32,742 bases of DNA, from the IMG/VR virus record IMGVR_UViG_3300028197_000084, positions 1 through 32,742 of that record; one strand, written 5' to 3'. Made by a program: the position numbers and the translations under genes. The notes beneath the pieces are model-generated. The model ran no database searches. It had not been told where the DNA came from and saw only the letters and a program-made list of their open reading frames with translations. Positions 6,703 through 32,742 of the stretch are shown piece after piece. The first letter of the stretch is position 1; each line of letters starts with the position of its first letter. This DNA comes from a virus.

Positions 6703-7476
6703 TTATGCTTCAATTTCTATATAACGTTTTGATTGACTTGGGAACTTTTTGCTGATAGATGTAAGCTTATCAATAAGTTTGTTTTTCAACACTTCTTTAG
6801 TCCCCAACGATAGGGTGTCTGTAGTATGCCTTACTCTTATTATAGCAAAACCCTTGCTTAAAATCAACCCTGTTTTGTTAGAATCTGCTTTTATTTGTTT
6901 TTTTAGTTTGTCCTCCCCCCAAATTGGTAAGAAGTGAGAAGGTCCATCAACTTCAATAATACATTTAACATCTGGGAAATACATATCTATTTCTAAGTTC
7001 TCATTTGGTATTAAATTCTTCTTATGTATATGTACAGTAAATCCTTCTCTGGATATTTCTCCAGCAAGAAACCTTTCCAATTTAGATCCTTCCTTGCCAG
7101 CCTTGCGTATAGCTTGAATTGCTTTGGTTCTCATGATATCTTTTTCTTCTTCAGACATTTCACTCCATTTTCTACGAGCAAAGTCTACCCTCTTATCATA
7201 TTCATCTTGTGAAATATTATCCCAATATTTTTTAAGAGAATGGCTAATTTTTAGCTTCTCTTCCTTACTTCTCTTTCTCCCCTTTGTTGGTATAATAGAT
7301 ACTCCTTTTTGAATTGCATTTTTTTGCGCCGTACTTTTATCGTTTAGCTCAATATTTTGTTTAATTAATACCCTTCTTATTTTATTAGGATAAGTATTTA
7401 ATTCTTTAGCTATTTCATACGTACTCATTTTTTTGTTTACGTACATATCTACAATGTTAGTATTAGTGTTTTTCAT
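6703..7476 (-). CDS. Vsr-like (PD-(D/E)XK fold) homing-type endonuclease with HTH and NUMOD3-like repeats
   Basis: 257 aa in three parts. Residues ~10-45 form a helix-turn-helix (MSTYEIAKELNTYPNKIRRVL). Residues ~66-130 are basic with a NUMOD3-like element (GRKRSKEEKLKIS), as in DNA-binding regions of homing endonucleases. Residues ~132-215 form a Vsr/DUF559-type nuclease: LERFLAGEI, then LEIDMYFP, IIEVDGPSHF and a final strand FAIIRVRH. The acidic residues of IEID, EVD and the His after DGPS are the likely active site. ATG with AAGG upstream, two bases after the previous stop. It is probably a free-standing mobile endonuclease gene that targets a related phage locus. No intron or intein is evident around it. 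Confidence 0.75.
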   Translation of the reverse strand: MKNTNTNIVDMYVNKKMSTYEIAKELNTYPNKIRRVLIKQNIELNDKSTAQKNAIQKGVSIIPTKGRKRSKEEKLKISHSLKKYWDNISQDEYDKRVDFARRKWSEMSEEEKDIMRTKAIQAIRKAGKEGSKLERFLAGEISREGFTVHIHKKNLIPNENLEIDMYFPDVKCIIEVDGPSHFLPIWGEDKLKKQIKADSNKTGLILSKGFAIIRVRHTTDTLSLGTKEVLKNKLIDKLTSISKKFPSQSKRYIEIEA

Positions 7477-14342: not shown

Positions 14343-15908
14343 TCATAATTCGTGAATTTTTTCAACTATAAAAGAAGCATCGTTCTTCTGTACGTTGCCA
14401 CAAAATAGAAGATTATTACCTTCGTATAATATATACTTATATTTATTCTTTACAGTTGGGAATATTATAACACTATCTAGAATACATGAGTCGTCTTCTA
14501 TAGTTAAGAAGGACATCGTCTGGCCTTTAGAATCTCCTTTACTTATTTTGTAGTCATATAACCTTTGTATATTTGCTACAACGCAGAGATTCTTTCCCTT
14601 CTTACCATTCACAATATCTTTACATGTAGTATTAGCAGCTGAAGTGTCTGCTGTATCTATTTTATTTGAAGTTATAGGACATCCAAGCAGTCTTGTTTCT
14701 TGCTCAATAATCCATGTTATATCATCTTCTAGACTGTAAGGTGGATCGTTAAGAAGTTGTATCTCATTTTCTACAATTTGCTTCCTTTCTTGCTTACTGG
14801 TTCCTCCACCTTCCTTTTTAGTAGGAGCCAAAGACTTCAGGCAGTCTGTGAAGTTGTCCCACTTATTATCCTTATAGTTTTTTTGAATCCATGTTTGTTC
14901 AGCCTTAGTTAGAGTTCGATATATCTCATAATCATATAGCGCTTTATTCCTGCTAATCTTTCCATTAAAATCTCTAAAGAATCCTATAGATGACAATCCT
15001 TTAAATGCAGTAGAGTTGATCTTTGGTGATAAAAATAATAATATTTCTAACCAGTTAAATTTATATATTTTTTTATTTAGTTCATCCTCTGCTTCTTGTA
15101 TTCCAGTTACAACCTTGTCTCCCGTTTTACCCGTTAGTGATTTAATATCCTTAATTCCAAAATATATTTTCTTCTTTTTGGCGTTGAACTTTTCCTGATA
15201 ATTAGCAACACTAGGAGTTCTAGCCTGAATGTCAAAGAGTTTTGCTTCAGAAATTAGTTCATATATCTCCTGATGTGGATCTTGTTTTTCATTTGCGTAA
15301 TAAAGATATGCAAGAAAAAACTCTTCTGGACTATGAGCCTTTTCATAAGCGCTCCAGTAAGAACACACAGCGTATGATATGCTATGTGATTTGTTAAATG
15401 CATACCTTGCTGATGCTTGAATCCAGCCGAATATTTGTTCTGCCTCTTCCTTGTTTACAATCTTAGCCTTCTTAGCTCCAGCAATAAACTTCTTTTTTAC
15501 CTTAGCCATTAGATCTGCTTTCTTTTTACCAATAGCTTTTCGTAATTCATCTGCTTCTTCAAGGTTGAAGCCAGCTATTTTTTGCGCGATACGCATAGAC
15601 TGCTCTTGATAAACTAGAACTCCATACGTAGGCAGCAACACCTCTTCTAGCGATTCATGCAAGAATGTTACTTCTTCACGACCATGCTTACGATCAATAA
15701 AGTGTTGAGTCATAGACTTCCCGTCCACGAAAGCTTTTAAACATCCGGGACGAATGATAGCAATTAATGCTGATAACTCTTCAATATTGTTTGGCGCAAG
15801 CTTCTTTGACCAAGACTTTCCAAGATTACTTTCTAGCTGAAAGACACCCTTGGTTTTACCTTCTGCAAATAGTTGCCAAGTTTCTTTATCGTCATATTCA
15901 TTTGACAT
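14343..15908 (-). CDS. dnaE: DNA polymerase III alpha, C-terminal half (fingers, HhH, OB)
   Basis: 521 aa. It begins NEYDDKETWQLFAEGKTKGVFQLES, matching DnaE just before the fingers. It continues with the expected fingers motifs IIRPG, HFIDRKHGREE, PTYGVLVYQEQSMRIAQ, ADELRKAIGKKK and FNKSHSISYA (171-180). Later come a helix-hairpin-helix-like segment (IYFGIKDIKSLTG, about 260) and an OB-type domain near the end (NLCVVANIQRLYDY...SFLTIEDD). The catalytic aspartates are not here; they are in the separate upstream gene. The start is ATG at 15908, overlapping the exonuclease stop by 11 bases; an upstream TTG is less likely. The beta-clamp motif could not be assigned. It must pair with the N-half to polymerise DNA. 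Confidence 0.9.
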   Translation of the reverse strand: MSNEYDDKETWQLFAEGKTKGVFQLESNLGKSWSKKLAPNNIEELSALIAIIRPGCLKAFVDGKSMTQHFIDRKHGREEVTFLHESLEEVLLPTYGVLVYQEQSMRIAQKIAGFNLEEADELRKAIGKKKADLMAKVKKKFIAGAKKAKIVNKEEAEQIFGWIQASARYAFNKSHSISYAVCSYWSAYEKAHSPEEFFLAYLYYANEKQDPHQEIYELISEAKLFDIQARTPSVANYQEKFNAKKKKIYFGIKDIKSLTGKTGDKVVTGIQEAEDELNKKIYKFNWLEILLFLSPKINSTAFKGLSSIGFFRDFNGKISRNKALYDYEIYRTLTKAEQTWIQKNYKDNKWDNFTDCLKSLAPTKKEGGGTSKQERKQIVENEIQLLNDPPYSLEDDITWIIEQETRLLGCPITSNKIDTADTSAANTTCKDIVNGKKGKNLCVVANIQRLYDYKISKGDSKGQTMSFLTIEDDSCILDSVIIFPTVKNKYKYILYEGNNLLFCGNVQKNDASFIVEKIHEL

Positions 15909-16581
15909 ACAAATTTCCGTTTGCAAACGCCTTGTCTAGTTCAATGTTTTGGTAGACAGCCCTGTGTGTCTTCAATAGCTTTATAAAGATATTAGCTGTA
16001 TCTTTAACATCTTGCAAAGCATCGTGTGCATTTTCTGAACTAAGACCCATGCGTTCACGCAGCGTGTCCATGCTAATTGATCTAATGCTAGGATCACCCT
16101 CTGTCCACATAAACATATTGTCCATTAAGTCTACTTTGTGTACCTTGCTAAATATTGTATTCTGACTCCTTTTTTCGTCGTAACGCACCTTGAGATCTTT
16201 ACATATTCTATTAAGCATAATCATATCATAGCCAATAATATTATATCCAACTGGTATGGGGGCAAAGAATGGTTCACCCTTCCAGTTATATTGATCTACA
16301 AACTTGATGAACTTATTCCACACGGGCTTTAAAGCGGGAGCTTTAGCTAAACCTTCTCTAGTTTTGCCAGTAACTTTTAATGCACCCTCTTCTATTGGAT
16401 CGTATCCTGCTGCAATAGCTTTTTCATCGTCGATGATGGGCTTGATCTCGCTGTTAAATTCACCCTTCACCTTTAGATTTCTACCATCAATTGCAAGCGC
16501 TGCGATTTGAGTAGGCATACACATGTGAGGATTCCTACCTGTGGATTCAAAATCAAATACGATGTAGTCTCTATTTGCCAT
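15898..16581 (-). CDS. dnaQ: DnaQ-like DEDDh 3'-5' exonuclease (proofreading)
   Basis: 227 aa. Exo I motif IVFDFESTG (D10, E12), Exo II around GYNIIGYDMIML (D119), Exo III NAHDALQDVKDT (H186, D191). All four acidic residues and the His are present, so it should be active. The insert between motifs I and II includes a P-I-x-x-D-A/P segment typical of this group. It lies between the two polymerase genes and overlaps the downstream half, suggesting a fixed proofreading partner. This fits the degraded PHP domain of the polymerase N-half. ATG start, two bases after the preceding stop. Confidence 0.9.
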   Translation of the reverse strand: MANRDYIVFDFESTGRNPHMCMPTQIAALAIDGRNLKVKGEFNSEIKPIIDDEKAIAAGYDPIEEGALKVTGKTREGLAKAPALKPVWNKFIKFVDQYNWKGEPFFAPIPVGYNIIGYDMIMLNRICKDLKVRYDEKRSQNTIFSKVHKVDLMDNMFMWTEGDPSIRSISMDTLRERMGLSSENAHDALQDVKDTANIFIKLLKTHRAVYQNIELDKAFANGNLYVK

Positions 16582-16583
16582 AA

Positions 16584-17075
16584 TTAGTCCTTCTTTTCTA
16601 GTTTCTCTAGTTTATCAATGCTTAAGTTATAGCAGTCTGCTTTAACCTTAAAATTATTACTTGGATCAATGTCGCCCTTCTTTAGTTTTCTAGCCTGTTT
16701 AAAATACTCAGCCTTGTCCTTTTGTCCTAACACCCATGCTTTTACAGGTCTATCACCTTCAAATTGTACTCTTACAAAAAGGTAAATATCACATCTTTGT
16801 TTTGTATTGAATGCAGCTACTGAGCAGTCGTAGTGTGGCTTAGGAGGACTTGTACATCGCTTGGTTTTTACATCATATGTTTTGCCACCGCTCACAATGT
16901 CAAAGTCATAAGTGTTAGCTTTAACTCCACCAAGATACTTCAAAGCTATCAACTCTCCTATAAAACCAGCAACGTTACCTTCGCCTTTGGTTATAGAATT
17001 TTTAAGCTTGCCCAAATCTTTAGCCATTACTCTTGCTTTAACTCTCATATAACCTGTAACTTCAACCTCTATCAT
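16584..17075 (-). CDS. PD-(D/E)XK-type nuclease-like protein between the polymerase halves
   Basis: 163 aa. A helix with E (VAGFIGELIALKYLGG), then YDFDIVSGGKTYDVKTKR, gives the E...D...D-x-K core of a PD-(D/E)XK nuclease. The strand CDIYLFVRVQF and the segment AWVLGQKDKAEYFKQAR follow, then a tail with SNNFKVKADCYNLSIDKL, an arrangement I associate with small phage endonucleases or restriction-like folds. ATG with AAGGA eight bases before, sitting in the end of the DnaE N-half gene, which it overlaps by 14 bases. It may process replication or recombination intermediates. It could also be the trace of a mobile nuclease that split the polymerase gene; the sequence does not settle this. Confidence 0.7.
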   Translation of the reverse strand: MIEVEVTGYMRVKARVMAKDLGKLKNSITKGEGNVAGFIGELIALKYLGGVKANTYDFDIVSGGKTYDVKTKRCTSPPKPHYDCSVAAFNTKQRCDIYLFVRVQFEGDRPVKAWVLGQKDKAEYFKQARKLKKGDIDPSNNFKVKADCYNLSIDKLEKLEKKD

Positions 17076-18627
17076 TAGTCAATTCCTTAATTTTCATTAG
17101 CTTGTCTAATAGATTAATTCCTAAGACATCAAATTTTACATGACCCAGCGCTTCTAGATCAGACATTTCTAATCCTGCTATTTTTTCTGCACTGCCTCTC
17201 TGTTTTACCATTGGACAAACTTTGTGCAGTGGCTCCTTCGATATAACCACTCCCGCTGCGTGTTTGCCCTGTGTCTTGAAGGTTCCTTCAATGTCTATAG
17301 CCTGCTGGAAATATTGTGCATAATCTCCTTCTAACTTCCCATCTTCTGTAACGTGACAAAAATCTCTCAATTCATCAGGACGATTTATCAGAGACCATTT
17401 AATGATAGATCTATCTTCTTCGTCCATCTCTGCAAGTTGGTCAGAAATTTCTGCTTCATTTGGTACACTCTTTGTTATAGCATTCATTTCTCCAAAAGAA
17501 CAAGCTTCATTTATACGTAGCACTTCCTTAATGGCGCTACGGCCTTGAAGTCTGCCGAATGTAATCATTTGACTTACATGTTCTTTGCCATACTTGATTT
17601 TTAAATAGTCAATAACATTGTCTCTTTTTTTACCGGGAACGTCCATGTCAATATCTGGGAGAGAAACATGACCGCCCGTATTACGACCAGCATTATAAAA
17701 TCTTTCAAACAAAAGATCGTGTTCTACCGGATCTATCTTAGTAATACCTATTAGATATGATATTAAACAGCCAGCAGCAGATCCTCGTCCCGGTCCAGCT
17801 AACCAACCTTTATCTTTTTCGACATGTCTAATAATGTCTTGAACGATTAAAAAGTATCCAAAAAGATCTGCGTCTTTTATGACTTGAAGCTCTTTATTAA
17901 ATCTATCTAAATATCTATTCTTATATTCTTCTTCTTTAACTTTTCCAGTATCAATAAGTAACCTTCTCCAACCTTCTCTAGCTAATGCTTTCAGGTGTTG
18001 TTCTTCTGAAGCGCCATTTGGACATTTAAATTTAGGCAACATGGGTGGACTAAGTATGTCATATTCTTCACATTCTTCATATATATATTTTAATTCTTTG
18101 GTCTCCACGCTTGCCTGTATGCACTTGTCATTGTTTGTAAAAAAATCAACATTTTTCTTAGACAGTTCGTGATTGCGAAGTTTTTTTTGTATTTTTGGTA
18201 GAGTAGTCTTAAGTTCTGAACACATAAGAATCCTATGCAGATCAGCGTGTTCTGGCTTTGCGTAATAAGAAGCTGATAACGACTTACTTAATAATATAAG
18301 ATTATCCTTAGACATAATTTCTTTAGCTATGTTTTTAGACAGGTCTCCATTTTCATCAAGAGACGAAACCATCTGAATGAGATCATTCCATCCCTGTCTA
18401 TTCTTAGCGTACACGGTGGAGCTGTCAAAAGTACAACCAAGTATTGGTTTTATGCCAACGCCTTTACAAGCTTGATAGAAAGACACACAGCCAGAAATTG
18501 TTTTATAATCTGAAATTCCACACGCTGGATAATCATTATCGGCACAAATCTTGGCAAGCTCTGTGGGCTTTGAGAAACCTTTTAACAAACTATAATGTGT
18601 AAAATTATGCAACGGAAACCAGTTCAA
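17062..18627 (-). CDS. dnaE: DNA polymerase III alpha, N-terminal half (PHP and palm)
   Basis: 521 aa. Residues 1-~190 form a PHP-like domain (LHNFTHYSLLKG, GIKPILGCTF) whose metal ligands are degraded: the second His of L-H-x-H-T is Phe and the usual T-D-H is S-D-Y. The palm follows with AGPGRGSAAGCLISYLIGIT, LPDIDMDVPGKKRD (catalytic D327 and D329), MITFGRLQGRSAIKEV, KTQGKHAAGVVIS and HVKFDVLGINLL (catalytic D500). The protein stops 21 residues after D500, where intact DnaE continues into the fingers. No intein sequence is present at the end. The TTG start is supported by TAAGGAG six bases upstream and by the PHP motif beginning at once. It needs the C-half at 14343-15908. Confidence 0.9.
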   Translation of the reverse strand: MNWFPLHNFTHYSLLKGFSKPTELAKICADNDYPACGISDYKTISGCVSFYQACKGVGIKPILGCTFDSSTVYAKNRQGWNDLIQMVSSLDENGDLSKNIAKEIMSKDNLILLSKSLSASYYAKPEHADLHRILMCSELKTTLPKIQKKLRNHELSKKNVDFFTNNDKCIQASVETKELKYIYEECEEYDILSPPMLPKFKCPNGASEEQHLKALAREGWRRLLIDTGKVKEEEYKNRYLDRFNKELQVIKDADLFGYFLIVQDIIRHVEKDKGWLAGPGRGSAAGCLISYLIGITKIDPVEHDLLFERFYNAGRNTGGHVSLPDIDMDVPGKKRDNVIDYLKIKYGKEHVSQMITFGRLQGRSAIKEVLRINEACSFGEMNAITKSVPNEAEISDQLAEMDEEDRSIIKWSLINRPDELRDFCHVTEDGKLEGDYAQYFQQAIDIEGTFKTQGKHAAGVVISKEPLHKVCPMVKQRGSAEKIAGLEMSDLEALGHVKFDVLGINLLDKLMKIKELTNDRG

Positions 18628-19677: not shown

Positions 19678-20307
19678 TTACCACGCCTTGCAAGACCAAT
19701 AGCGAGCCTTCCATTTTGGACCGGGATTCGCACAGTTATGTCTAGCTCTAAAAGACTTTCTTCTTGCTGGATTATCCTTCTTGATAGACATGTTAGGATC
19801 GCCAAAGTTTACTTTAACAACATTGCCAGATCCATTTTTGACATAAACGCTTCTTTTCTTAGGCCCATCTGGAGTTAAGAATGGCTTTCCAAGCTTAACT
19901 TTTCTGCCCTGATATTCTGCTGCCATACCCTTACATCCACACCCATCTGATTCTTTATTTTTTTTCTTACGTAATATTTCAAAGTCTTCTTTACTTACTT
20001 TGCCATCGTTGTTTACATCAAGAGATTTTTTTTGTTTATCAGAAGGTTCTGATTGTGCCTTTTTCCAAGCGTCTGGATCTGGCCTATCTTTATCGCCTTT
20101 CTTGGCGGGTTTATAGTTTTTGCCTTCTCGTTCTTTCTTCTTACGGATATTTTCCCACAGTGAAGCAGCGTCATATTCTCCTTCATCTTCTCCACAATCT
20201 TCATATTCAGCTTCTGTAGGTATATAAAAATTTTCTTCTGTTAGTTCTTCTGTAGAACCATAAGTTTGAAAATTATACTCTTCATCAGCTTCTTCTATAA
20301 AAGACAT
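19678..20307 (-). CDS. EF-hand protein with C-terminal Trp/Cys-rich domain
   Basis: 209 aa from an ATG with AAGGAG six bases upstream; the longer frame starts inside the preceding glycosyltransferase gene. The N-terminal 60 residues are acidic. A calcium-loop motif DVNNDGKVSKEDF (97-109) matches D-x-N-x-D-G-x-x-x-x-x-D. A Cys segment DGCGCKG follows. The C-terminal ~70 residues (KKRSVYVKNGSGNVVKVNFG, ARRKSFRARHNC, KWKARYWSCKAW) form a compact, conserved-looking basic domain. I recall similar tails in head or packaging-related phage proteins and in uncharacterised proteins, but do not assign a role. Calcium binding is likely from the loop residues. Confidence 0.6.
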   Translation of the reverse strand: MSFIEEADEEYNFQTYGSTEELTEENFYIPTEAEYEDCGEDEGEYDAASLWENIRKKKEREGKNYKPAKKGDKDRPDPDAWKKAQSEPSDKQKKSLDVNNDGKVSKEDFEILRKKKNKESDGCGCKGMAAEYQGRKVKLGKPFLTPDGPKKRSVYVKNGSGNVVKVNFGDPNMSIKKDNPARRKSFRARHNCANPGPKWKARYWSCKAW

Positions 20308-20317
20308 AATCAGCTCC

Positions 20318-21172
20318 TTATAAAGTTTGTTTAATGGCAGCATTAAGTAAGTAATCAATGCTGCCGGGAGGAATCTTTTCTTTAAAATGTTCGTAAGCGC
20401 CCGTTATCATTTCGTGTTCTGGATCTTGCGTTAGTTCTAGCCATCCTATAAAATAATTCCATATTCTGTCTTCTAGAATCAGCGGGTATGGTACACCTTG
20501 AGGTCTAGAAAATCTATGCATCCACTTGAGTTGAGGTAAGCAAATTGCTTTCCCCCCAAACTGTCTGAACTTTTCATGTATATATCCTTCTTCTCCACCA
20601 AATCCTTTGAATTTTTTATTAAAGCCAACCCAATTTTTCGTTTCGCACGAGAATAGTCCACAACCCTGCATGGGTATTTCAAATGGATCTCCCTTTCGTA
20701 ACGCTTCATGGTTTGTATCCCAAGTACCCCACATTCCAGAAGACCATCCCGGTTTGAAATGTGTTGAAGGATTTTTAGTGTCTAAGCCATCATATACTAA
20801 TGGTCCAGTTATTATATCCTTACAGTCTGGATTCTTGGAATAATATTCTAATAGTGACGATATAGCTCCGTTAAATATTAATACATGACAATCCATAGAG
20901 ATGGTATATTTACTCTTAGATTGTCTAAAAATTTCATTTCTGACTGTTGTGCTTTTTTTCAGAGTGTACGGTATGTATATTCCATTTTTAATCCACTTCA
21001 TAAACTTTTCATTAGCTTTACCATGAGGCGAATCTGGATTATTATCTACTAAAATTATCTCTGTTTGATCAGTATTAAATATTTCATGGTACATGCGTAA
21101 TGCTTGTATGCTAAAAAATACTCCATCATGATCGTCATATGTTGCCATACCTAGCGTTATTATTTTTTTCAT
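20318..21172 (-). CDS. GT2-type (GT-A fold) glycosyltransferase
   Basis: 284 aa. The opening TLGMATYDDHDGVFFSIQAL is the first strand and loop of GT2 enzymes. It continues with EIILVDNNPDS, then ISMDCHVLI (D94-x-H96 in the place of the metal-binding D-x-D) and the acceptor-site segment FKGFGGEEGYIHEKFRQFGGKA (about 188-209) with the catalytic acidic pair. WMHRFSRPQG follows. It should transfer a sugar from a nucleotide donor in the cytoplasm. It sits outside the main glycan cluster, between the RecB-like nuclease and the EF-hand gene, 7 kb upstream of the GT4 genes in the same transcription direction. ATG start one base after the preceding stop. Confidence 0.82.
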   Translation of the reverse strand: MKKIITLGMATYDDHDGVFFSIQALRMYHEIFNTDQTEIILVDNNPDSPHGKANEKFMKWIKNGIYIPYTLKKSTTVRNEIFRQSKSKYTISMDCHVLIFNGAISSLLEYYSKNPDCKDIITGPLVYDGLDTKNPSTHFKPGWSSGMWGTWDTNHEALRKGDPFEIPMQGCGLFSCETKNWVGFNKKFKGFGGEEGYIHEKFRQFGGKAICLPQLKWMHRFSRPQGVPYPLILEDRIWNYFIGWLELTQDPEHEMITGAYEHFKEKIPPGSIDYLLNAAIKQTL

Positions 21173-25867: not shown

Positions 25868-26328
25868 GTTCTCTTTCCTTTTTCTAATAGAATGTCTGCT
25901 TTACGTTTTAGTTCATATATCTTACCCTCTAGGGATTGAACTCTTGACTCTGCAATCTCACGATAGTGATCTACTGTGGCTGCATATTCATCGTTTACAA
26001 TTATAAGTGGTCTACGTTCCTCATATTTAGTATACTTACTGAACTGATCGTGGTTTTTTGCAACCATTTTATTTAACTTGTCATTACACCAACTGAGCGC
26101 AATCTTCTGCATATTTAATTCATCTTGTAGATGTGTAGAGAAGCTGTACAATTCATAAGCCCAAGTGAATAGTTCGTCTTTAGTAAGAATACTTATAGTA
26201 TCTTTGCTAGCATTAGCACATCTATGCCAATCCTCTCTGAAATCCTTGTTAAACCTAGCATGGCTAGCATTGAGGAAGTCATCTATCATAGCTCTTAATT
26301 CAGCTAGCTGCTCATTCGCTGTTTTCAA
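25864..26328 (-). CDS. Helical protein of unknown function (154 aa)
   Basis: The TTG start has GGAG eight bases upstream; the next Met is 13 codons further in. Most of the sequence is charged and helical, with a segment NMQKIALSWCNDKLNKMVAKN, then YTKYEERRPLIIVNDEYAATVD, and a terminal coiled-coil-like helix (AESRVQSLEGKIYELKRKADILLEK). The middle and end look like a conserved phage family of unknown role. It overlaps the Vsr-like nuclease gene by 17 bases and the next gene by 4. No enzyme motif or membrane segment. Confidence 0.6.
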   Translation of the reverse strand: MKTANEQLAELRAMIDDFLNASHARFNKDFREDWHRCANASKDTISILTKDELFTWAYELYSFSTHLQDELNMQKIALSWCNDKLNKMVAKNHDQFSKYTKYEERRPLIIVNDEYAATVDHYREIAESRVQSLEGKIYELKRKADILLEKGKRT

Positions 26329-26737
26329 TTTGATCTCTCCATTGCTCGTCTGTATCTGAGTACTTCAATACTATTATATCAACTCTATTCAATTCGCACC
26401 ACTCTATTTTGTCTTCATCCTTAGCTTGTCCTGAGATGAAATCAGCTTTATTTTTATGAAAGAACGGAGTATATTCATAATGTTGCTGACCATGAACTTC
26501 TATTGCTAATTTAATTTGGGGGATTAAAAAATCGAGAAAAAGCACACCCTTCCTGTGGCTTGGGGTACTGCCCGGAAGTTTTACTTCCTCTAACATCCGA
26601 TAAGAATGAAACATCTGTTTGAGTATATTCCTTGCTCTTATGTGATACTTCGATCTTTTCCTTGTGTCGTTTGCTGCCACTGAATATCCGCTTAAATTCC
26701 AAACGTACTCTCTGCCATTTAAACCTGTAACCTTCAT
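26312..26737 (-). CDS. Small Vsr-like/DUF559-type endonuclease
   Basis: 141 aa. The core is LFLDFLIPQIKLAIEVHGQQHYEY (D69, E80 and H82, H86), the signature of Vsr/DUF559-type nucleases, followed by FFHKNKADFISGQAKDEDKIEWC and a last strand VDIIVLKYS. The N-terminus MKVTGLNGREYVWNLSGYSV and a basic helix (RKRSKYHIRARNILKQMF) precede it. ATG with GGAG six bases before. It lies downstream of recA and may cut DNA in recombination, or be a mobile gene like the larger Vsr-like protein at 6703-7476. Its compact fit in the operon favours a resident function. Confidence 0.72.
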   Translation of the reverse strand: MKVTGLNGREYVWNLSGYSVAANDTRKRSKYHIRARNILKQMFHSYRMLEEVKLPGSTPSHRKGVLFLDFLIPQIKLAIEVHGQQHYEYTPFFHKNKADFISGQAKDEDKIEWCELNRVDIIVLKYSDTDEQWRDQIENSE

Positions 26738-31131: not shown

Positions 31132-32742
31132 CTAAATGATGTCGCACTTACCTCCAGCACAAGCTACTTCTTGAACTGGATTAACATTATTTTCTTTTTC
31201 TATAATTTTAGTATAGTCAATGTCTTTATATTCACGTTTAATATCTAGCCATTCTTTCCAATTATAAACATCTTTCATGCAATATGTTAGTTGTTTTAAA
31301 TCACCATCCATATATTTGTCAGCAAACTTTTGACATTTATCTTGATAAGACTTTCTATCTTTACCTTTAATTTTTTGACCAACACCTAACAAGCTGTCGC
31401 AAGCAGCCCAAAGATTATCTTCATAAAGAGAAAGTCCAACCTCTATTAATCCGCTAACAAACATCGCAGCGTCTCCGTAATGTTGTATTTGCTCACTAGG
31501 TAAATACACGGTTGTGAACGGAGCTTGTGCATAATCTTTATCTCCAGCAATAGGAAGTAAAGAAACCCCACAAAAATACTTACGATTCTTGTAAATGTAG
31601 TCCGTAACAGCATCCCATTCATCTGGCTTAACATTAATAGTATTAGACACATTGTGTGTTAGCCAAGGTTGAGTACACTGTTTAGGATTTTTCCCATTCA
31701 TAACCCAGTTTCTTTGTGTATCTCTTACATATTCAAGAAGATCAATTGCTCCAACCTGATTTTTAATCTTCGCACCATCTGGAACCTCTACGCAGAAAGC
31801 TACAACATCATCCGAGTCATTATTAGACCATACGGACTCTTCACAGGCTCTAGGATTGATTGTTTTAAAGTGCTGATAGATTGGTTCCATTTTATTTGCT
31901 TGGACTCTACGAATGTATCTCTTGGCGTGATGGGGATGTATGCCAGACGATGTTCCAAGAATACAACTTGACGTACCTTCTGGCTTGACACACGTTGTAC
32001 GTGCAGCTTGATTAACACCAATTAATAATGCTAATTCTTTATTTGTTTCCTTAACTATTTCTGCGCCTTTCTTCTGCACTTCTGGATCAAGACATATTTC
32101 GTGCTGCTCCATAATCCCCGTCATAGATACACCTAATAAAGCTTCACGACTAATAATTCTTTCTGAAACTTCTCCAAGATACGGGAAGCTAGCAAATCCA
32201 GCTTGTAGCGTTCCAATGATTGCAGCAGAAGCACACGCTTCATAAAATTCTTTTTTGGTTGTTACTTTGGAACAGTTAATAGTCGATAGATTGCAAGCCT
32301 GCCATCCAGTTTTACCTGTCTGTTCATCCACGGGCCACATGCCAATTTCTACACATGGATTTACAATAAGCTCTGTAGAATCAGACCAAACAAATCCCGG
32401 CTCTCCAAACTCTTTTACGGATTGCATTAGTTCAGAGAACTGTTCCTTAGTTGTTTCGTTTCTTAGTAAAAGAGCAGAGTTGTTTGATCTTCCACGCTGT
32501 GGATTTTCCATAAACCATGATCCAGTTTTGGCTTTTGCCATTTCTTCATCGTCAGCGGAAAACAAACAAATTGTAGCGCTACGACGAACACCTCCACTAA
32601 TTACAGCATCAGCGCCATACATTACTATATCATATGCTTCAATAGGTCTAAGTTTCTTCTGTCCATTTTTAATAGCTCCATCAAGGGTCTTCTTGATACT
32701 TGTAAGAGCATTTCTTAAAGGATCTGGGCCGGGAGCCTTCCC
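31132..32742 (-). CDS. Class II (B12-dependent) ribonucleotide reductase, C-terminal 536 aa
   Basis: The frame is open to the right edge, so the N-terminal part is missing. The visible chain starts GKAPGPDPLRNALTSIKKTL and contains MYGADAVISGGVRRSATI, RGRSNNSALL, IVNPCVEI (with the radical-forming Cys), ACNLSTINCSK, CVKPEGTSSCILGTSSGIHP and a C-terminal pair CAGGKC that would recycle the active-site thiols. These fit monomeric adenosylcobalamin-dependent RNRs (Lactobacillus leichmannii RTPR type), which reduce nucleoside triphosphates. There is no separate small-subunit gene in the window, consistent with class II. It supplies dNTPs and depends on host cobalamin. Confidence 0.88.
   Translation of the reverse strand, partial: GKAPGPDPLRNALTSIKKTLDGAIKNGQKKLRPIEAYDIVMYGADAVISGGVRRSATICLFSADDEEMAKAKTGSWFMENPQRGRSNNSALLLRNETTKEQFSELMQSVKEFGEPGFVWSDSTELIVNPCVEIGMWPVDEQTGKTGWQACNLSTINCSKVTTKKEFYEACASAAIIGTLQAGFASFPYLGEVSERIISREALLGVSMTGIMEQHEICLDPEVQKKGAEIVKETNKELALLIGVNQAARTTCVKPEGTSSCILGTSSGIHPHHAKRYIRRVQANKMEPIYQHFKTINPRACEESVWSNNDSDDVVAFCVEVPDGAKIKNQVGAIDLLEYVRDTQRNWVMNGKNPKQCTQPWLTHNVSNTINVKPDEWDAVTDYIYKNRKYFCGVSLLPIAGDKDYAQAPFTTVYLPSEQIQHYGDAAMFVSGLIEVGLSLYEDNLWAACDSLLGVGQKIKGKDRKSYQDKCQKFADKYMDGDLKQLTYCMKDVYNWKEWLDIKREYKDIDYTKIIEKENNVNPVQEVACAGGKCDII

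Follow-up and report, generated by a model that had tools for sequence, protein, structure and literature searches.

The DNA analysed here (the window) is a 32,742-bp IMG/VR virus record, IMGVR_UViG_3300028197_000084, consisting of one environmental contig. In this sequence the bacterial-type replicase DNA polymerase III alpha (DnaE) is encoded by two separate genes, divided between the palm and fingers domains, with the gene for a 3'-5' exonuclease lying in the break. The arrangement recurs throughout a lineage of large phages, where both polymerase genes are conserved under purifying selection with intact catalytic residues. It is very probable that together they encode a non-covalent, two-polypeptide C-family replicase, produced from one tightly packed gene string.

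The polymerase is cut in a loop between palm and fingers

Four packed genes run along the minus strand in the order N-half (18627-17062), nuclease (17075-16584), exonuclease (16581-15898) and C-half (15908, or 15926, to 14343). The features of the locus are as follows.

17062..18627, minus strand: N-half of a DnaE-type DNA polymerase III alpha, with reduced PHP, palm carrying D325, D327 and D500, and thumb (Pfam PF02811 and PF07733, E. coli DnaE alignment, AlphaFold2 (AF2), Foldseek)
15909..17061, minus strand: palm-fingers break interval, holding the exonuclease and nuclease genes, with neither an intein nor an Rfam intron (profile searches)
16584..17075, minus strand: gene for a PD-(D/E)XK-like endonuclease, optional and probably mobile (insert shared by 10 relatives; no family match)
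15898..16581, minus strand: DEDDh 3'-5' exonuclease, proofreading-subunit-like (PF00929, phrog_192, invariant catalytic residues)
14343..15908, minus strand: C-half, with fingers (FQLES, KSHS), the region that follows and OB domain (Pfam PF17657, E. coli DnaE alignment, AF2, Foldseek)

The N-half (521 aa) matches the DNA_pol3_alpha family with an E-value of 4e-68 and covers the model to its end (260/260); PHP is also matched in Pfam, and the alignment to E. coli DnaE runs to approximately residue 576. Both the PDIDxD and KFD catalytic aspartates and the GPGRGSAAG palm motif are present, the aspartates being invariant in 23 diverse members. The C-half, which is 521 aa long from the ATG at 15908 or 527 aa from a possible TTG at 15926, matches DNA_pol3_finger in Pfam (E 8e-48) and resumes the E. 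coli alignment at residues 587-591, so that the cut maps to about residues 576-587. Its FQLES and KSHS fingers motifs are invariant among the aligned members. The original prediction, made from the sequence alone, was borne out at each of these points: the N-half ends 21 residues past catalytic D500, the C-half begins about 20 residues before FQLES (22 residues separate the motif from the ATG), some ten linker residues are absent relative to E. coli DnaE (aligned to around 576, then from 591), the three catalytic aspartates lie in one half and the fingers in the other, and the KSHS site is intact.

Modelled by AF2 as single chains, both halves fold well, with a mean predicted local distance difference test score (pLDDT) of 85 and a predicted template modelling score (pTM) of 0.81 for the N-half, and 86.6 and 0.76 respectively for the C-half. 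Foldseek aligns the N-half with the E. coli and Taq alpha subunits at E-values of 1e-28 to 1e-29 and likewise matches the C-half to Taq and E. coli alpha; each predicted half corresponds to its counterpart region in the alpha subunits of E. coli, Taq and M. tuberculosis. The N-half model ends in a helix (505-519), and in the C-half model a short tail precedes the first helix (8-15). This places the cut in an inter-helix loop, where a gap removes nothing essential.

The C-terminal OB domain is supported by a weak alignment to E. coli residues 1009-1060, by OB-fold matches in Foldseek and by a tRNA_anti-codon Pfam match in one relative (L272). Both the E. coli alignment and the predicted structure indicate that the C-half stops at the OB strands and that the tau-binding C-terminal domain is missing. 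In the window's clade the PHP domain is shrunken and has lost metal-site residues that more distant members retain, and in distant relatives of the L116/L125 type the C-half carries the linker absent here together with ~20 further residues.

The break is fixed in a lineage of large uncultured phages

A viral contig collection was scanned with either half alone, an approach in which fused relatives would have surfaced too. Several hundred loci were fetched and deduplicated to 207 showing both halves (206 from viral contigs plus L140, described below; fewer contigs if near-copies remain). The halves are separate open reading frames (ORFs) in every one of these distinct loci, none of which encodes DnaE as a single polypeptide. 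The ratio of non-synonymous to synonymous substitution rates (dN/dS), taken from pairs without synonymous saturation, spans 0.02-0.08 in the N-half and 0.01-0.08 in the C-half. Coupled with the invariant catalytic motifs, these values uphold the earlier claim that neither half is degraded and both are under selection. Pairwise distances of the N-half correlate with those of the C-half (r = 0.94) and of the exonuclease (0.90), as expected of any linked genes.

The two-piece enzyme is the sole recognisable replicative polymerase of the phage in the contigs searched. Among 30 long contigs of 55-238 kb, every one has exactly one DNA_pol3_alpha (palm) match; the 20 of these that were searched further each have exactly one fingers match, and neither PolA nor PolB was detected in them. 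A third gene carrying an intact DnaE, which the original prediction had named as grounds for its own refutation, was therefore not found among them.

When placed in a tree alongside DnaE of bacteria and phages, 10 split representatives group together as a single clade (Shimodaira-Hasegawa-like approximate likelihood ratio test, SH-aLRT, 100), separate from bacterial DnaE. The group comprises uncultured aquatic phages with contigs of up to 238 kb and has no close cultured member, every match in the phage collection lying below 60% identity. The proposed search of phage genomes for the same break point did, in addition to the 207 loci, recover the cultured Rossellomorea phage phiT1 (L302:3203-6485, PV767480.1), whose DnaE is cut at the same loop into 573 + 469 aa with a 49-aa gene between; a shared origin with phiT1 is neither supported nor rejected (approximately unbiased test, p 0.52). 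The only close match in the genome contig collection was L140 (NZWA01000066.1), a 9.4-kb contig binned as Flavobacteriales. As L140 itself carries the viral order of N-half, exonuclease and C-half, it is probably a misbinned virus.

DUF1501 and DUF1559/prepilin genes occur inside the polymerase region of L272 (9728-12083), and the window contains a dockerin-domain gene at 19678-20358; such genes, noted together with locus L121, suggest planctomycete-like hosts. Unlike its polymerase, which has no close cultured relative, the window's ribonucleotide reductase (31132-32622) shares ~47% identity with Rhizobium phage RHph_I1_18 and Pseudaeromonas phage KLEP7.

An exonuclease gene always occupies the break

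The exonuclease (15898-16581) matches RNase_T (E 3e-13) and phrog_192, 'DNA polymerase exonuclease subunit', and its DEDDh residues D10, E12, D119, H186 and D191 are invariant in 16 diverse members. Its dN/dS is likewise mostly 0.01-0.08 in unsaturated pairs. The gene lies between the polymerase halves in 207/207 loci. In the most compact form of the locus (N-half, exonuclease, C-half) there is an overlap of 7-14 nt between the N-half stop and its own start, and it often overlaps the C-half start too; such frequent start/stop overlaps fit coupled translation.

The second gene that the original prediction had noted in the break fared differently. The nuclease at 16584-17075 sits between N-half and exonuclease in 10 fetched relatives and is absent from most loci. 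Profile searches returned no family match for it, and its PD-(D/E)XK-like residues (E40, D59, D68-x-K70) were recognised only by eye. Where N-halves share only 73-76% identity with the window's, the nuclease copies are still ~90-94% identical to its own, so this gene varies less from locus to locus than the polymerase halves do and seems to move independently of them. Judged by these comparisons it looks like a mobile endonuclease, an optional passenger rather than part of the polymerase system.

Other genes have entered the same interval. An Endonuclease VII-type HNH gene (PF02945) is found in the break of ~31 loci, alongside other HNH genes and, identified by eye, FkbM-like methyltransferases and glycosyltransferases in further loci. 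These varied insertions mark the break as an insertion hotspot, and the endonuclease insert that characterises 'genes-in-pieces' is present here, though not in every locus. Elsewhere in the window, HNH/homing endonuclease genes lie at 6703-7476 and 26312-26737.

Related loci carry further breaks and inteins

This gene family is broken or carries insertions at no fewer than four other sites, some of them with inteins, and offers a view of gene breakage by mobile endonucleases and inteins. In L272 (12970-15853) and L295 (9732-12690) the C-half is broken again between FNK and SHS, the site at which cyanobacterial DnaE is split. A split intein scoring above the TIGR01445 cut-off causes the break in L272, and L295 looks similar by eye. 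In both, the C-half pieces are separated by an endonuclease gene (DUF559/NUMOD3 or LAGLIDADG_3), leaving their polymerase in three parts. The N-half of L093 (4334-6305) is broken between GRG and SAAG, with probable split-intein N- and C-pieces visible by eye and NCBIfam intein profiles unmatched. In L430 (1108-4098; also L414, L416 and L432-L438) the N-half is instead broken between LFERFY...HIS and MPDIDID, and the gap holds a LAGLIDADG-like endonuclease ORF (by eye), with no Rfam intron or intein profile found at this break. L252 (9732-12077, on the same contig as L353) has an in-frame C-half intein between IRPG and CLEA, with an HNH-like endonuclease region and an intein profile score just below cut-off. 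Finally, DnaE of Dulem virus 36 (L307:3983-7879, PP511521.1) is interrupted at FNK(G/S)H by an ORF resembling an endonuclease, and no intein-like ends are visible there by eye. Given these further breaks, it is plausible that the universal palm-fingers break also began with a mobile element.

Discussion

We propose that two polypeptides are made from the string of N-half, optional mobile nuclease, proofreading exonuclease and C-half genes. Nucleotidyl transfer would take place at the active site in the N-half, and the C-half would contribute the fingers and the domains that contact DNA, with the two folding separately and joining non-covalently across the normal palm-fingers interface. The exonuclease would probably act as a third subunit that proofreads and may also bridge the two pieces. 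In the strongest form of this proposal, the palm subunit, exonuclease and fingers subunit are three obligate parts of a C-family replicase that is physically bridged by the exonuclease and fixed in the whole large-phage lineage; we consider this tentative extension doubtful, although bridging of both polymerase pieces would explain why the exonuclease gene never leaves the break. As to origin, a mobile endonuclease or gene rearrangement most likely split a single dnaE, and the break may have been kept because the pieces still assemble.

Three considerations weigh against a working two-piece enzyme. Its assembly and activity are deduced from genes and single-chain models; the co-variation of distances shows co-inheritance and does not prove contact; and, since none of the contigs is known to be complete, another polymerase could be encoded beyond the stretches searched.

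A different view would make the halves relics, or proteins with separate non-polymerase roles, and leave copying of the phage genome to the host replicase. No beta-type clamp (DNA_pol3_beta_2) was found in 24 contigs, and this, together with the missing tau-binding end and the decayed PHP metal site of the window's clade, indicates that the cellular attachments of the enzyme have been lost. Relics, however, would hardly preserve invariant catalytic aspartates and fingers motifs under strong purifying selection on both halves, nor does that view sit well with the DnaB helicase, primase, SSB, UvsX-like and exonuclease genes grouped in the polymerase region. We consider it unlikely.

Less likely still is a joined product, with the two halves linked through a split intein that escaped recognition, through RNA splicing or by programmed frameshifting. 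Trans-splicing does occur in the gene family, since L272, L295 and L093 have extra breaks elsewhere in the gene that are repaired by split inteins, whether established or likely. At the palm-fingers break, however, Hint/intein profiles match neither half of the window, in keeping with the original prediction of no intein there. Across members, 0-15 residues follow the final conserved helix of the N-half and ~20-60 precede FQLES in the C-half, which leaves too little room for intein pieces, and intein joining was rejected on both counts. Joining by an intron was rejected since no Rfam model matched at the break. The N-half stop and C-half start lie 0.6-6 kb apart across loci, with variable genes between them that rule out a conserved frameshift; a frameshift fusion of exonuclease and C-half was also rejected, as their overlap is not conserved and genes intervene in many loci.

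An assembly error, sequencing frameshift or recent pseudogene, a fair suspicion for a single environmental contig and one raised by the original prediction, is already refuted by the recurrence of separate ORFs at all 207 loci, the real gene between them and the low dN/dS, and its probability is negligible.

If the two-polypeptide reading is correct, these phages rebuild a bacterial-type replicase, of a kind that ranks among the most thoroughly studied, from two unjoined pieces. They would then offer a ready-made split polymerase and a natural, testable case, in a large and diverse phage lineage, of the extent to which the active site of a replicase tolerates division.

Comparison with known split polymerases

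In cyanobacteria (Ssp and Npu), DnaE is encoded by two genes, broken at KSHS and joined by a split intein; the phage enzyme differs in that its KSHS site is intact and no intein was found at its break. Tenacibaculum phage Larrie (Cbastvirus, ON950054) was deposited with two adjacent Pol III alpha genes, but its break lies inside the palm, between LFERF and DIDxD, with ~50 extra residues at the end of the N-piece, close to the position of the L430-type break. The gp20/gp18 pair of phiT1 is cut in the same palm-fingers loop as the window's polymerase and similarly lacks intein family matches in either half. It differs in having a full-length PHP domain and a 49-aa gene in place of the exonuclease, and is the lone such case found.

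Split phage replicases are thus already known. Group 2.2 jumbo phages encode a minimal Pol III alpha as two stand-alone proteins, which have been proposed to reconstitute the enzyme (Iyer et al. 2021, PMC7824862). That split concerns a minimal core of catalytic and template-binding modules encoded by distant genes, with a PolB alongside (PMC7824862), whereas the enzyme described here has a nearly full domain set, including PHP and OB, adjacent genes, and no PolB found in 20 contigs. Our literature search, with subscription papers outside its reach, returned no account of a DnaE of nearly full length that is permanently divided at the palm-fingers boundary with its proofreader between the pieces.

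The closest functional precedents come from other enzymes. Among T4-related phages, the split B-family polymerase of an Aeromonas phage, gp43A/gp43B, co-purifies and polymerises, and the split NrdA of phage Aeh1 is fully functional (PMC2988022). Like gp43A/gp43B (phages 25 and 44RR) and Aeh1 NrdA, the polymerase described here is an essential phage enzyme encoded as two ORFs with mobile endonucleases at the break, and by analogy its pieces may likewise assemble. Non-covalent function was shown experimentally in those systems, while the present one is known from its genes and predicted folds. Moreover, those examples are a B-family polymerase and a reductase from single phages, whereas here a C-family replicase is divided throughout a whole lineage, with its proofreading gene inside the break.
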